Shown here in pieces: positions 15,328 through 27,187 of a stretch of 64,000 nucleotides of DNA. How positions within the stretch are numbered: the stretch's first letter is position 1; every line of letters begins with the position of its first letter. The notes under the pieces are model-generated. The model had not been told where the DNA came from and ran no database searches. It saw only the letters and a program-made list of their open reading frames with translations. Position numbers and translations under genes: made by a program. Source of the stretch: Levilactobacillus lanxiensis (lineage in GTDB: Bacteria; Bacillota; Bacilli; Lactobacillales; Lactobacillaceae); assembly GCF_016861655.1 (NCBI RefSeq), contig NZ_BOLN01000006.1, forward strand, positions 124,001 to 188,000, written 5' to 3'.

Positions 15328-15353
15328 GCCAGTCGTTCAATACCGTTCCCGGC

Positions 15354-15515
15354 GGCGGATTCAAGGTGGCCTGCTATGGGGCCGGCTCCAGACAAAGGGC
15401 GGTCTTCCGCCTCAACTTTGAGCCTGAGAAGCGGTCTCAAAGGTTGTCCCATGGGCTAAGCTGAGTGAGAAACCTCAGCTAAGACCATCGACACAGCTGG
15501 CCACCTTGATCCGCC
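15354..15515 (+). other. Structured intergenic element, copy A
   Basis: About 160 non-coding bases after folA. The outer stem is 17 bp (15354-15371 with 15499-15515, one bulged T). Inside are a short hairpin with loop ACAAAGGGCGGT, a hairpin CAACTTTGAG / CTCAAAGGTTG (15413-15422 / 15436-15446), and a third helix ATGG / CCAT (15451 / 15485) continuing through GCTAAG / CTAAGA into CTGAG / CTCAG. The same plan is found at 25327, 25631 and 25987. There is no protein-coding pattern. Confidence 0.7.
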
Positions 15516-15647
15516 TCTGGTCACTCAGTATGGAACACGACATTTACGCCACGCTGAAGGTGAACTAGTCTGCAACTACAGTATTCTTCACTTAATCTAA
15601 TATTTGCTAAAAATAATCTTACCTACGTTAAATTACGGCGCATCAAA

Positions 15648-19262: not shown

Positions 19263-19655
19263 GATGGGCAAACCAGTGCCTCCGGGACGGTGAAAAGGAG
19301 TTTGACCCAGAAAATCTTCGGACGCCATTAAAGGGCATCCCCCCAAAGGACTTTCGTAAACCTGTTCTAAGGGCTTGCTACTTCTGCATTTGTTCATGGT
19401 GAACCACATCTGTCCCTAAAAGAACACGGGAAAAACGTAAGATGGGGTAGCTGGTATTCAGCTTTAGATCAGGCAAAAAGTTGCCGCCACTATTCACATA
19501 ATCAGTGGGCAATCTTTTTGATGTACATGCCCTAAAACCAGGTCTGTAACCAGTTCACTCAGCTTGAAAACCACCTGTATCTGTCGTATACTTACCTAGA
19601 TAGCCAGGGTAAGACCCTAGTTGGAAGATATCATCTGATTAAAGGAGGAATAGGC
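19263..19655. other. Intergenic region before the toxin-antitoxin-like cassette
   Basis: No gene is recognised. The stretch carries one arm of a direct repeat (about 19417-19455, see 20288-20331) and the promoter at 19564-19592. An AGGGT-aag-ACCCT inverted repeat at 19606-19618 lies just after the promoter and could be an operator. Confidence 0.5.
19564..19592 (+). promoter_or_regulatory. Promoter of the two-gene cassette
   Basis: TTGAAA (19564-19569), exactly 17 bases, TATACT (19587-19592). Confidence 0.75.
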
Positions 19656-20209: not shown

Positions 20210-20488
20210 TGGCATTACAAGTCAGCCTGCACTTCACTATTTTATTCATTGGTATGCCATGAATGTAATTCTACAAGCCACTTCCTTATCTAAAATTGAA
20301 CGAAAAAATGGTAAGATGGGGTAGCTAGTGAAAAATAGGTATTCGTTTCAGTAAGCAACAATCCACGACGAACTCTTCTAAGAAGTAGTTAGTCGCAGTA
20401 ATCACCAGCCAAACAATACCATGAGTTTTAAAGTACTTAACCCACTAATTAAATCTACTACGCTTCACTATCAAAAGGAGAAAATACA
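20210..20488. other. Intergenic region before rbgA
   Basis: AT-rich with no gene. It contains the second arm of the direct repeat (20288-20331) sharing GTAAGATGGGGTAGCT with 19436-19451. Confidence 0.5.
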
Positions 20489-23186: not shown

Positions 23187-25298
23187 TTGCCGACTACATC
23201 AAAAGCAAAATCAACGACAAAAAAGCGGCGCAAACCGCAAAAAAAATTAGTCATCGTTGAATCACCTGCGAAGGCTAAGACCATTGAAAAGTATTTAGGC
23301 CGGACGTTTAAGGTCATGCCTAGCCTGGGTCACGTGCGCGATCTACCGAAAAGTTCGATGGGGGTCGATACTGAACATGATTACGATCCGCACTACATTT
23401 CCATTCGTGGGAAGGGTGACGTCATCAAGGGCTTACGCGCCGAGGCCAAGAAGGCCAAAGCCGTTTACCTCGCATCTGACCCTGACCGTGAAGGGGAATC
23501 CATTGCCTGGCATTTAGCCCACGTCCTGAACTTAGACGTGACCGACAAGAACCGGGTCACATTTAACGAAATCACCAAGGACGCCGTTAAAGAAGCGTTC
23601 AAGACACCGCGGACCATCGACATGAACCTGGTGGACGCCCAACAAGCCCGCCGGATTCTGGACCGTTTAGTGGGGTATTCCATTTCACCACTGCTCTGGA
23701 AAAAGGTCAAGAAGGGCCTGAGTGCCGGTCGGGTGCAATCCATTGCGTTGTCCCTGATCATTGAACGGGAAAAGGAAATCAAAGCCTTTATCCCCGAAGA
23801 GTACTGGACCATCGAAGCCGACTTCAAGAAGGCCCGCCACACGTTTGGCGCTAGTTTCTATGGGCTGAACGGCAAAAAGGCCAGTTTGAAGGACAACACC
23901 GCCGTGCAAGAAGTCTTAGGCAAACTCGACAAGAATGGTGACTTTGACATCACCAACGTGGTTCGTAAGGAACGGAAGCGCTCACCACAACCGCCATTTA
24001 CCACCAGTTCCATGCAACAGGATGCCAACCGGAAGCTGAACTTCAGAACCCGGAAGACCATGATGGCCGCCCAACAGCTTTACGAAGGGATCAACCTGGG
24101 TAAGGAAGGGACGCAGGGGCTCATTACCTATATGCGGACCGACTCCACCCGGATCTCCAGCATTGCTAAGCATGAAGCCTCAACCTTTATTCATGAAAAA
24201 TATGGGGCCGAGTACGCCGCAACGAAGCCGATTAAGGGCAAGCTGCCTGAAGGGGCCCAAGATGCCCATGAAGCCATCCGGCCAACCTCTGTGTTCCGGA
24301 CGCCAGCTAGCCTGAAGGAACGCCTGAACAAAGACCAATTCCGGCTATACCAATTAATCTGGAACCGTTTTGTGGCCAGTCAAATGACCAACGCCCTCAT
24401 GGATACCATGGCCGTCACGCTCGAACAAAACGGCGTCACGTTCCGGTCCAATGGGTCCAAGATGAAATTCGAAGGGTTCTTAAAGATCTACAAGGACAAC
24501 AAGGAAAAGGATAACCTCCTGCCCGAACTGAGCATCGGTGACCAAGTCAACTTGGCCAAAACGGATCCGGCCCAACACTTTACCCAGCCACCTGCACGTT
24601 ATTCCGAAGCCAACCTGATCAAGGCGCTGGAAGAAAATGGTGTGGGTCGGCCATCGACCTATGCGCCAACGTTGGACACGATTCAACGCCGGTACTACGT
24701 CAAATTGGTCGGTCGGCGGTTTGAACCCACTGAACTGGGTGAAATCGTTGATGGCATCATCAATGAATACTTCCCAGACGTGGTCAACGTCGACTTTACC
24801 GCCAACTTGGAACACGAATTGGATGGAATCGAAGAGGGCCAACAGGACTGGGTCAAGGTCATTGACACCTTCTACAAGCCATTCTCAACCGAGGTGGCTC
24901 ACGCGGAAGACGCCATTGAAAAGATTCAGATCCGGGACGAACCCGCTGGCTTTGACTGTGATATTTGTGGGGCCCCAATGGTCATCAAGATGGGCCGCTA
25001 TGGCAAGTTCTACGCCTGCTCACGCTTCCCAGATTGCCGCAATACCAAGCCAATCGTGAAGGAAATCGGCGTGACCTGTCCCGTTTGTCACAAGGGTGAG
25101 GTCATCGAACGTAAGTCCAAGAAGAACCGGATTTTCTACGGTTGTTCTCGCTACCCCGACTGTGACTTTGTCTCATGGGACAAGCCAGTCGGCCGTGATT
25201 GCCCAAAGGATGGTCACTACCTGGTTGCCAAGAAGATTCGTGGTGGCGTGCAAATCGTCTGCCCCAACGGCGACTACGAAGAAGCCCCACAAAAATAA
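23187..25298 (+). CDS. topA: DNA topoisomerase I
   Basis: 703 residues. It relaxes negative supercoils. After a basic Lys-rich N terminus, the TOPRIM motif [16 protein letters not shown] (about 22) and the [12 protein letters not shown] acids (about 93) are followed by the active-site region [14 protein letters not shown] (Tyr near 312). Two C-terminal zinc ribbons with CDICG...CSRFPDC and CPVC...CSRYPDC (about 590-665) and a last CPNGDY piece are typical. The start is TTG at 23187, with GAGGGAG nine bases upstream; no ATG or GTG is available in frame. A palindromic leader precedes it. Confidence 0.95.
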
Positions 25299-25326
25299 AT
25301 TTGCTTGGTCACTACCGCCTGCAGAT

Positions 25327-25481
25327 GCTAAACATTCCGCCTGTGGGGCCCGCCCGAAGCCAAAGAACGGTCTTCGGGTTCGGCTTAGAGCCCGAAAAAG
25401 CATCGGTCTCTAAGTCCGGCCGTGGCGTAAGACCGGAAAAACGCCGGCCTAACGCCACCTTCACAGGTCTACATGTTTAGC
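25327..25481 (+). other. Structured intergenic element, copy B
   Basis: The outer stem GCTAAACAT / ATGTTTAGC (25327-25335 / 25473-25481) continues with CCTGTG / CACAGG. Hairpin 1: CCCGAAG / CTTCGGG (25353 / 25372) around loop CCAAAGAACGGT. Hairpin 2: CTTAGAG / CTCTAAG (25384 / 25408). Hairpin 3: GTGGCG / CGCCAC (25422 / 25453) with internal TAAG / CCTAA, then CCGG / CCGG. It is homologous to copy A. Confidence 0.72.
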
Positions 25482-25554
25482 CTCTTCCGGCTATCGTGAC
25501 GGCTAAATTGATTTTGTGTGACTCATCGTAAGTTTTTAAACTTTAAACTAAAAT

Positions 25555-25607
25555 ACAGGTTTGTTAGGTACTTCCGCCCTAGCTGTGGAGGTGTCTAGCA
25601 AGCCTGT
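25555..25607 (+). repeat. Hairpin repeat E1
   Basis: The outer arms (starting ACAGG and ending CCTGT) form 14 pairs including G-T wobbles, with an inner helix. It is about 75% identical to E2 at 25828; similarity continues about 25 bases past the hairpin (GTTAAGATGATT). Confidence 0.65.
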
Positions 25608-25630
25608 TTGTGTTAAGATGATTTTCATAT

Positions 25631-25745
25631 GGAAGTTAAGTACGGTCTTCAGGAGCGGCTTGAAGCTTTACCCAACCCGTAAATCTTCAAGCACGACCCG
25701 TGGACTAAGGCCGGCAAGTACCCGACCTAAGTCCACCGACACAGG
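25631..25745 (+). other. Structured intergenic element, copy C
   Basis: Hairpin 1 is short (GGAAG / CTTC around a loop ending ACGGT). Hairpin 2 is GCTTGAAG / CTTCAAGC (25658 / 25685). Hairpin 3 is GTGGAC / GTCCAC (25700 / 25731) with TAAG / CCTAA internal loop, followed by CGACACAG as in copy A. A clear outer stem is missing, so this copy may be 5'-truncated. Confidence 0.62.
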
Positions 25746-25827
25746 GAGACGGTTTATCCTCTTCCGGCTAACGTCAAACTGTTTATTTTGAGAATCTACT
25801 TCGTGCCTAACTGAAATTTTCATTACT

Positions 25828-25880
25828 ACAGGTTTGTTAGATGTTTTCCACCAAGTTGTGGAGATGTCTGACAAGCCTGT
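25828..25880 (+). repeat. Hairpin repeat E2
   Basis: Second copy of the E1 hairpin, 273 bases later. The outer stem again has 14 pairs with two G-T wobbles, and the inner CCAC / GTGG helix is perfect. Confidence 0.65.
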
Positions 25881-25986
25881 TTGCGTTAACACGATTATCA
25901 TTTGAATCTGGTGCAGCCTCGTATGGGACACAATGACAACATAAAACGCAAACCACCGTTTACGGGCTGAACCAGTGTTAGCCGCA

Positions 25987-26148
25987 GGGAGGGTGAAAAT
26001 GAGCTTAGCCGTGGGAGTTACCTTAGCGGGTTCCCCGCTTAGGTAACTGCTATCTTTGAGACGTGATCCTCGGCTCAAAGTAAGCCTGGAGACCGCTTTT
26101 TGGCTCCAGGCGGCGCCCACAGCGTTCCGGCTCAGTTTTCACCCTCCC
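25987..26148 (-). other. Structured intergenic element, copy D (inverted)
   Basis: Outer stem GGGAGGGTGAAAA / TTTTCACCCTCCC (about 17 bp with GAG / CTC inside). Read on the minus strand: hairpin 1 GCCTGGAG / CTCCAGGC around CCAAAAAGCGGT, hairpin 2 CTTTGAG / CTCAAAG, hairpin 3 AGTTACC / GGTAACT with TAAG / CTAA internal loop and CGGG / CCCG tip. Confidence 0.72.
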
Positions 26149-26254
26149 GGAGGCGAGTGACCTGAGACAGTCCAAGATGAAAAGCCTGATGAGTTAGTTG
26201 TGTTTTTTCGGTGCGTTTGCTAGCATTGAGAACAGGTAGCAGGGAGGTGTTCAC

Positions 26255-27187
26255 GTGGACCAGGCCATCACAGCGTTTTTAACGTATTTACAAGGTGAGC
26301 GACAATATTCACCGGAAACGGTCAAAGCGTACCGCGAAGACCTTGAGGAGTTCACCAAGTTCCTCGCGGACAACGGGGGAACCAAGGCGTGGACGGCGAT
26401 TGACCAGTTAGACGTCGAGGTTTATCTGAGTGATCTGTACGACCGGCACTATGCCCGGACGACGATTGCCCGGAAGCTCTCCACGTTGCGGTCACTGTAC
26501 AACTTCTTGATGAGCAATGGGCAAGCCAAGGATGATCCCTTTGCCTACGTCCAGCTCAAGCACCACCAGAATCATTTACCACGGTTCTTCTACGAACGGG
26601 AAATGACCGCGTTGTTTGCGGCCGCGGGGGCCAACCCGAATGAACAGCTGGCCACTCGCGATTCGGCATTGCTAGAAGTCCTGTATGGCACCGGGATTCG
26701 GGTCAGCGAGTGTGTAAATTTAACGCTGCCCGATATTGATTTTGACAACCGGATCATGTTGATTCATGGGAAGGGTAACAAGGAACGCTACGTCCCGTTT
26801 GGCCACTACGCTAGCGACGCCCTGCAGCAGTACTTTACCGCCGCGCGAACGCCCATCATGGCGCAGCACCAGGAGACACACGCGTTTGTCTTTATCAATC
26901 ACCGGGGCCAGCAGCTGACCCCCGCCGGTGTGACGTACCTGCTGAACCAGATTATCAAACGCAGTACGTTGACTACGGAGATTCATCCCCACATGTTGCG
27001 GCACACGTTTGCCACGCACCTGTTAAACCGAGGGGCCGACTTGCGGTCGGTTCAAGAACTATTAGGTCACAGCAGCCTCTCGACCACGCAAATTTACACC
27101 CATGTGACTCGTGAGCACTTGCAGCGCGATTATCGCCAGTTCTTCCCGCGAGCCACCGAAGATAAATCTAAAGAAACCAAGCCATGA
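26255..27187 (+). CDS. xerC: Tyrosine recombinase XerC
   Basis: 310 residues. It resolves chromosome dimers at dif together with XerD. The SAM-like N-terminal domain (1-95) is followed by the catalytic domain with Arg149 (GTGIRVSE), Lys173 (GKGNKER), His246 and Arg249 (HMLRH), His272 (LGHSS) and Tyr281 (TQIYTH), a complete set. The GTG at 26255 has AGGGAGG upstream. It leads xerC-hslV-hslU with gaps of 19 and 18 bases, as in B. subtilis, but codY does not follow here. Confidence 0.93.
   Translation: MDQAITAFLTYLQGERQYSPETVKAYREDLEEFTKFLADNGGTKAWTAIDQLDVEVYLSDLYDRHYARTTIARKLSTLRSLYNFLMSNGQAKDDPFAYVQLKHHQNHLPRFFYEREMTALFAAAGANPNEQLATRDSALLEVLYGTGIRVSECVNLTLPDIDFDNRIMLIHGKGNKERYVPFGHYASDALQQYFTAARTPIMAQHQETHAFVFINHRGQQLTPAGVTYLLNQIIKRSTLTTEIHPHMLRHTFATHLLNRGADLRSVQELLGHSSLSTTQIYTHVTREHLQRDYRQFFPRATEDKSKETKP

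Follow-up and report, generated by a model that had tools for sequence, protein, structure and literature searches.

A very large family of dispersed three-hairpin elements with fixed polarity at gene borders in Levilactobacillus

Three multi-hairpin sequences lie between topA and xerC in the stretch of Levilactobacillus lanxiensis DNA analysed here (contig NZ_BOLN01000006.1, positions 124,001 to 188,000; 64 kb, hereafter the window, from a genome of 3.03 Mb in 24 contigs), and they raise the question of what kind of element they represent and whether their structure matters as RNA or as DNA. A preliminary description had recorded them as copies B, C and D, together with a copy A elsewhere in the window, and this four-copy observation is confirmed. 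Compared with 200 dinucleotide shuffles, A (15340-15530), B (25308-25506) and D (25970-26165, minus strand) fold far better than expected, with z-scores of -6.04, -8.19 and -7.52, and C (25600-25790) gives -3.34. The sites had been placed correctly and the element ends too short, the intervals folded for B and D corresponding approximately to their full extent (Table 1). Minimum free energy (MFE) folds of B and D consist of a long outer stem, a closing stem of the CTGTGG/CACAG type and three hairpins; the element measures about 200 bases, and up to about 280 when nested. Both loop features that had been singled out, the TAAG/CTAA internal loop of hairpin 3 and the CC...CGGT loop of hairpin 1, are real. 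The single plan proposed for all four copies holds for the shared fold and not for subfamily, since B and C are of type I, A is of type II and D belongs to type III. The outer stem had gone unseen in C because this copy is cut at its 5′ end, and its ortholog in L. wangkuiensis (record L092) is full length; D has orthologs both there and in L. mulengensis (L091). The topA terminator region, single in L091 and L092, is present twice in the window as direct repeat D5, the end of the first repeat overlapping the model match of copy C. Elsewhere in the window, a 39-nt terminator-like segment forms a perfect tandem duplicate at 483-560 and is single in the alignments of L. wangkuiensis G012, L. mulengensis G026, G003 and G030, and a 52-nt repeat ending in GTAAGATGGGGTAGCTnGT occurs at 19404-19455 and 20278-20329 with 73% identity.

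Table 1. Positions of element copies, their hairpins and the topA terminator repeats in the window
Feature	Position	Strand	Basis or remark
Copy A, type II element (core 15373-15497)	15345-15525	+	R2 94.5 bits, E 5.4e-19
Copy B, type I, complete with outer stem (core 25340-25467)	25308-25506	+	R2 118.2 bits; ortholog in L. mulengensis L091
B hairpin 1, 7-nt loop, one bulged base	25352-25379	+	MFE fold
B hairpin 2, conserved 1x1 C/T mismatch	25382-25416	+	MFE fold
B hairpin 3, TAAG/CTAA internal loop	25422-25458	+	MFE fold
topA terminator region, first copy (D5), between B and C	25554-25631	+	repeat search
Copy C, type I, 5′ truncated, hairpin 1 partly lost	25603-25745	+	R2 62.0 bits, E 7.6e-12
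topA terminator region, second copy (D5), between C and D	25827-25904	+	repeat search
Copy D, type III, complete with outer stem (core 26008-26124)	25970-26165	-	R1 116.9 bits
D hairpin 1	26084-26111	-	MFE fold
D hairpin 2	26054-26080	-	MFE fold
D hairpin 3	26016-26048	-	MFE fold

That pairing is kept while sequence changes, as had been noted from the four copies, holds in larger sets of copies. Among 74 type I/II copies, 93.3% of the cells are standard pairs, with 388 two-sided changes against 102 in shuffles; for 38 type III copies the figures are 97.5% and 150 against 38, although the number of further pair types was less striking in this subfamily, being matched by 17 of 500 shuffles. Because these alignments were fitted to the models, controls with slid partners matter, and displacing the partners by one to three columns lowered pairing to 27-48%. 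Model-free MAFFT alignments already contain two-sided changes in 26 of 41 and 15 of 36 pairs. The covariation is very strong. Certain mismatches are as constant as the stems, counted over the same 74 and 38 copies: in hairpin 2 the C side of the mismatch is kept in 97% of type I/II and 100% of type III copies and the T side in 95% and 100%, and the two sides of the A/A mismatch in hairpin 3 are kept in 100% and 96% of type I/II. A bulged T in hairpin 1 is invariant in the 38 type III copies and is not fixed in type I/II.

To count copies, covariance models were built from 16 type I/II cores (R2) and 17 type III cores (R1), with A, B and D among the training sequences and C absent from them. 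Together the models recovered A, B, C and D in the window and no fifth place at E up to 1, the only further row being the reverse strand of D (E 0.26). In the own genome each model gave at least 150 matches (the best 150 of 1163 and of 1481 candidates). Among the matches listed, the weakest E values were 1.3e-13 and 3.2e-17 and the lowest scores 77.7 and 89 bits, which exceed the best earlier cross-model score of 67.7, so the R1 and R2 lists should not overlap. This search, which the preliminary description had proposed, bears out its suggestion of a dispersed family in both orientations, with hundreds of copies and matches in other Lactobacillaceae genera too; by blastn, copy B alone found 43 places in its own genome at E up to 1. 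For an estimate of copy density, 400 kb, equal to 13% of the genome, was sampled as 20 stretches, each 20 kb long and set at round coordinates, which were picked after the own-genome match lists were known; they held 42 type I/II and 26 type III copies, and these 68 copies extrapolate to about 515 per genome.

At E ≤ 1e-6, R2 matched 33 of 35 Levilactobacillus genomes and none of 23 genomes from other families of the same order, and R1 had matches in 28 of the 35. An even sample of Lactobacillaceae, searched at E ≤ 1e-4 with the best 16 or fewer candidates per genome, gave matches in 42 genomes out of 201, representing 10 of 40 genera. Most of 23 copies from four other genera (g21, g37, g41 and g55) fold, as judged by eye, to the same plan; they lie in DNA of 34-49% GC, and six of them overlap a mechanical ORF of at least 90 codons. 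Searching by blastn, we found no match on plasmids with type I copy B or one type III copy as query, and none in phages with copy B. Rfam 15 returned no match in the whole window at gathering score, none in 25290-26260 at E up to 5 and none in a copy-rich 60 kb at E up to 1, while a TPP riboswitch, the positive control, was the only match in 140 kb. The zero matches in the window and in the copy-rich DNA rule out Rfam membership, in agreement with the initial failure to recognise a named RNA class. At roughly 200 bases for each of the extrapolated copies, about 3.5% of the genome would be one structured element that has no Rfam entry. No description of the hairpin-cluster element was found in the open-access literature; a 2017 survey reportedly presented 224 candidate RNAs and could describe a relative.

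The copies occupy gene borders with a definite polarity. All 117 own-genome copies examined lie clear of called genes, and 114 of them are placed between two calls; the calls were based on codon usage and have a coding fraction of about 0.70, so some genes are missed. Of 23 gaps holding two copies, 19 are '+-', four '--' and none '-+', and the three-copy gaps read '++-' twice and '+--' once. For 59 single copies, the 5′ side is nearer a gene in 53 (p 1.8e-10); it looks towards the end of a gene in 35 cases and towards a start in 24, and in 34 of the 35 the core lies within 95 nt of the gene end. Copies occur in tandem, convergent and divergent gaps, and in the sequences listed the outer stem starts shortly past a stop codon or, for some copies, near an apparent ribosome-binding site. 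The same rule was seen in G003 (four '+-' gaps, singles 4 to 1) and G002 (three '+-' gaps, singles 4 to 0); G030 has two copies only, one each way. These counts show that the polarity at gene borders is fixed. Genes are at times found between two outward-facing copies 2-3 kb apart (A0/A12/A26 blocks, e.g. L176 9711-11735), an arrangement that follows from the polarity rule. Insertion at terminators was considered as well, B and C preceding the topA terminator, and is not supported because five '+-' pairs lie between divergent genes.

Comparison of related species revealed how individual sites change. The window XerC is 99% identical to that of L. mulengensis, in which the topA-xerC gap reads B-terminator-D; in L. 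wangkuiensis it reads full-length C-terminator-D, and the window has both B and C over the duplicated terminator. B and C behind topA (window 25554-25904; L091 and L092) look like alternative alleles lying side by side. The gap contains no model match in six other records (L093-L097 and L099), of which L094 keeps a hairpin with similar ends, and a shorter variant that appears to be without hairpin 1 occupies L098 3269-3365 and L100 3258-3358 (L. koreensis and L. andaensis). L094 is CP032931, deposited as L. brevis CD0817; its XerC is 93% identical to the window's, while the figure for the L. brevis type strain (L099) is 88%; L094 may therefore be misnamed at species level. Across two syntenic blocks, the majority of copies are matched by one at the same position in the closest species; the close-species differences that were aligned consist mainly of deletions, with a single tandem duplication and a single extra copy besides. 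At L181 6694-7035 (G012), two near-identical type III copies stand in tandem where the own genome has one. From more distant species whole sites differ, one interval measuring 419 nt in G003 and 15-20 nt in three of five relatives; such sites must have been gained or lost. No clean empty site showing a target duplication turned up: where filled and empty sites were aligned, the difference was a deletion or the flanks had diverged, and in distant species a duplication is unreadable because the flanks are too diverged.

Sites at which the subfamily switches between species pointed to exchange of the core. At five of six such sites aligned, the outer type III stem is nearly constant and the inside is swapped, with a type III core in some species and an entire type II-like element in others; the outer stem differs as well at the sixth, and the tenant of a seventh aligned site is inverted. 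In stretches of three genomes, pairing shells over up to 600 nt and merging both-strand double counts (86 to 71) gave 71 distinct shells: a type III core occupies 44 of them and a type II-like element 26, one is coreless, and the longest measures 282 nt. Each of the six wider pairings (2.0-3.4 kb) turned out to comprise two or three copies in their own right, set around ordinary gene calls, and no shell with a gene inside was found among the pairings of up to 600 nt. A further 27 shell motif matches stayed unpaired; in 19 cases a known copy lay within 120 nt. By eye, several of the type III copies listed end in GGGTTAAAC...GTTTAACCC.

Stems are also constrained at fixed loci. Between orthologous copies of three close species, paired bases differ by 4.3% and loops by 10.6%, and 4-fold sites of the same species diverge by 14-19%; 42 of 54 comparisons were kept, which are not independent of each other, and 12 were dropped for identity below 85% or poor overlap. 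Among these orthologs, 33 of 37 two-sided changes restore Watson-Crick pairing, and 192 one-sided changes comprise 54 G-T, 71 A-C and 67 others. Constraint of this kind, seen locus by locus, is as compatible with a local function as with mobility.

An RNA or single-strand DNA structure had been proposed as the target of selection, and for an RNA of the strand originally described the wobble pairs gave no support: in columns that are at least 90% Watson-Crick, that strand has 10 G-U against 23 A-C. Over all its paired columns the G-U:A-C ratio is 43:54 in type I/II and 40:19 in type III, and 30 of the 40 type III G-U cells trace to a single closing-stem position, a U-G pair fixed in 30 of 38 copies, whereas T-boxes of the same genus, used as a control, gave 171:11 over all paired columns and 29:10 in well-paired columns. 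Apart from the closing-stem pair, G-U is not in excess on the described strand, so RNA-level selection there is not supported. Freely folded alignments of random samples (30 of 76 and 30 of 41 copies) gave 17:21 and 8:18 on this strand and 69:4 and 39:9 on the complementary strand. Counted strand-symmetrically, there are 46 G-T against 97 A-C outside the closing stem (28:43, 12:14, 0:4, 1:6 and 5:30 by set) and 28 against 4 inside it. With the closing stem left out, copies beside gene ends and gene starts are alike (24:36 and 17:30), and the ratio shows no dependence on how the adjacent gene is transcribed. A strict count of type III cores gave 36 GT against 7 AC, under which the T-box control itself failed (1:7); the intrinsic-terminator control comprised 16 comparisons only, and the tRNAs only a handful. 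The described strand therefore does not look like typical RNA, and the weaker preference lies on its complement, which may act as an RNA or as a single DNA strand read the other way. Overall, the preliminary interpretation is partly supported.

The reading we favour, with confidence slightly better than even, is one very large non-coding dispersed family of hairpin clusters, BIME/BOX-like but larger, that is probably copied and exchanged as folded DNA. The long outer stem closes a junction with three hairpins, and the elements, being putatively non-autonomous, would be copied and exchanged as a hairpin on one strand or as a cruciform; we infer that a host or trans-acting recombination activity would drive this process. 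The fixed mismatches may serve as recognition marks, and the polarity could arise from directional insertion or from selection against other placements. Two enzyme families were searched for as partners. Y1 transposase (PF01797) occurs in 23 of 35 Levilactobacillus genomes, counting any Y1 protein with RAYTs pooled, and is absent from G012, the closest relative, which has at least 103 R1 matches; it is thus ruled out as a general partner. Reverse transcriptase (PF00078), present in only 10 of the 35 genomes, was rejected as well. That neither family supplies a mobilising enzyme and that no plasmid or phage copy was found count against mobility. Also against the favoured reading are the absence of a clean empty site with a duplicated target, the predominance of losses among the aligned close-species differences and the G-U excess on the complementary strand.

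If the elements act as cis-acting RNA in mRNA leaders and trailers, for instance by providing stability or insulation at gene borders, one would understand why the same side of 53 of 59 singles is nearer a gene, why 34 of 35 gene-end-facing cores lie so close to the gene, and why stems are constrained at orthologous loci; the complementary-strand G-U preference (69:4 and 39:9), the 5 GT against 30 AC on the described strand in other genera and the fixed U-G of the type III closing stem on the described strand (30 of 38) also agree with it. We nevertheless consider this explanation possible though on balance unlikely, in view of the 10:23 ratio in well-paired columns of the described strand, the 54:71 ratio among recent one-sided changes, and the similar ratios beside gene ends (24:36) and gene starts (17:30), two settings that differ in which strand is transcribed. 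Copies moreover sit in tandem, convergent and divergent gaps, and the constant orientation to a regulated gene expected of a cis-regulatory RNA was not found (35 gene ends against 24 gene starts). Alternatively, the palindromes might be functionless, with template-switch repair keeping the arms complementary and gene conversion homogenising the copies, which would account for two-sided changes far outnumbering one-sided standard pairs in many columns (e.g. AU 46, GC 27 and no G-U), for the 33 of 37 two-sided ortholog changes that restore Watson-Crick pairs, for whole cores replaced within similar shells and for outer arms that vary between copies yet pair. Arm-to-arm correction would erase mismatches, however, and the survival of the hairpin 2 C/T (95-100%), the hairpin 3 A/A (96-100%) and the type III bulged T (all copies) counts against such upkeep, which also leaves the gene-border polarity unexplained; we regard it as rather improbable.

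Returning to elements exchanged as folded DNA, a bolder version, which we hold quite unlikely, is that the constant outer stem at gene borders acts as a dock for exchangeable folded cores across Lactobacillaceae; were it true, structure rather than sequence would be the inherited address of genome-wide exchangeable DNA cassettes. In any case, a single fold available in hundreds of natural variants, among them swaps at orthologous sites and one inversion, offers a test of how hairpin DNA is kept up, and it raises the questions of what moves such repeats where Y1 transposase is absent and whether gene borders are marked by folded DNA.

Among known systems, REP, BIME and REPIN sequences are built on a short single palindrome (20-40 nt) with hundreds of intergenic, chromosomal copies, often in inverted pairs, and are associated with RAYT (Y1) transposases. 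The present element is likewise intergenic, hairpin-forming and chromosomal and occurs in inverted doublets (the 19 '+-' gaps), but it is about 200 bases long, combining a junction of three hairpins with a long outer stem, and, unlike REP/REPIN with RAYT, it abounds in G012 where no Y1 gene is found. MITEs are short, non-coding, dispersed sequences with inverted-repeat ends, presumably non-autonomous; in B and in D the two outer arms pair with one another as terminal inverted repeats do, whereas the internal structure is conserved beyond the ends alone, and neither a related autonomous transposon (with shells paired up to 600 nt) nor a target duplication was seen. In attC sites of integrons, structure is conserved over sequence, and fixed extrahelical bases are read on one folded DNA strand; the precedence of structure and the fixed unpaired bases of our element recall this by analogy. 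BOX elements are intergenic, modular, structured repeats of a low-GC firmicute. Our element shares these three properties and has a low-GC firmicute host as well, and is set apart from the BOX description by nested stems with exchangeable cores and by its occurrence in another bacterial family. The BOX elements of Streptococcus pneumoniae are named in PMC2267715. The present repeat has no Rfam family and fails the Y1 test of a REP/RAYT system; it is most likely a non-autonomous element of a BIME/BOX-like class.
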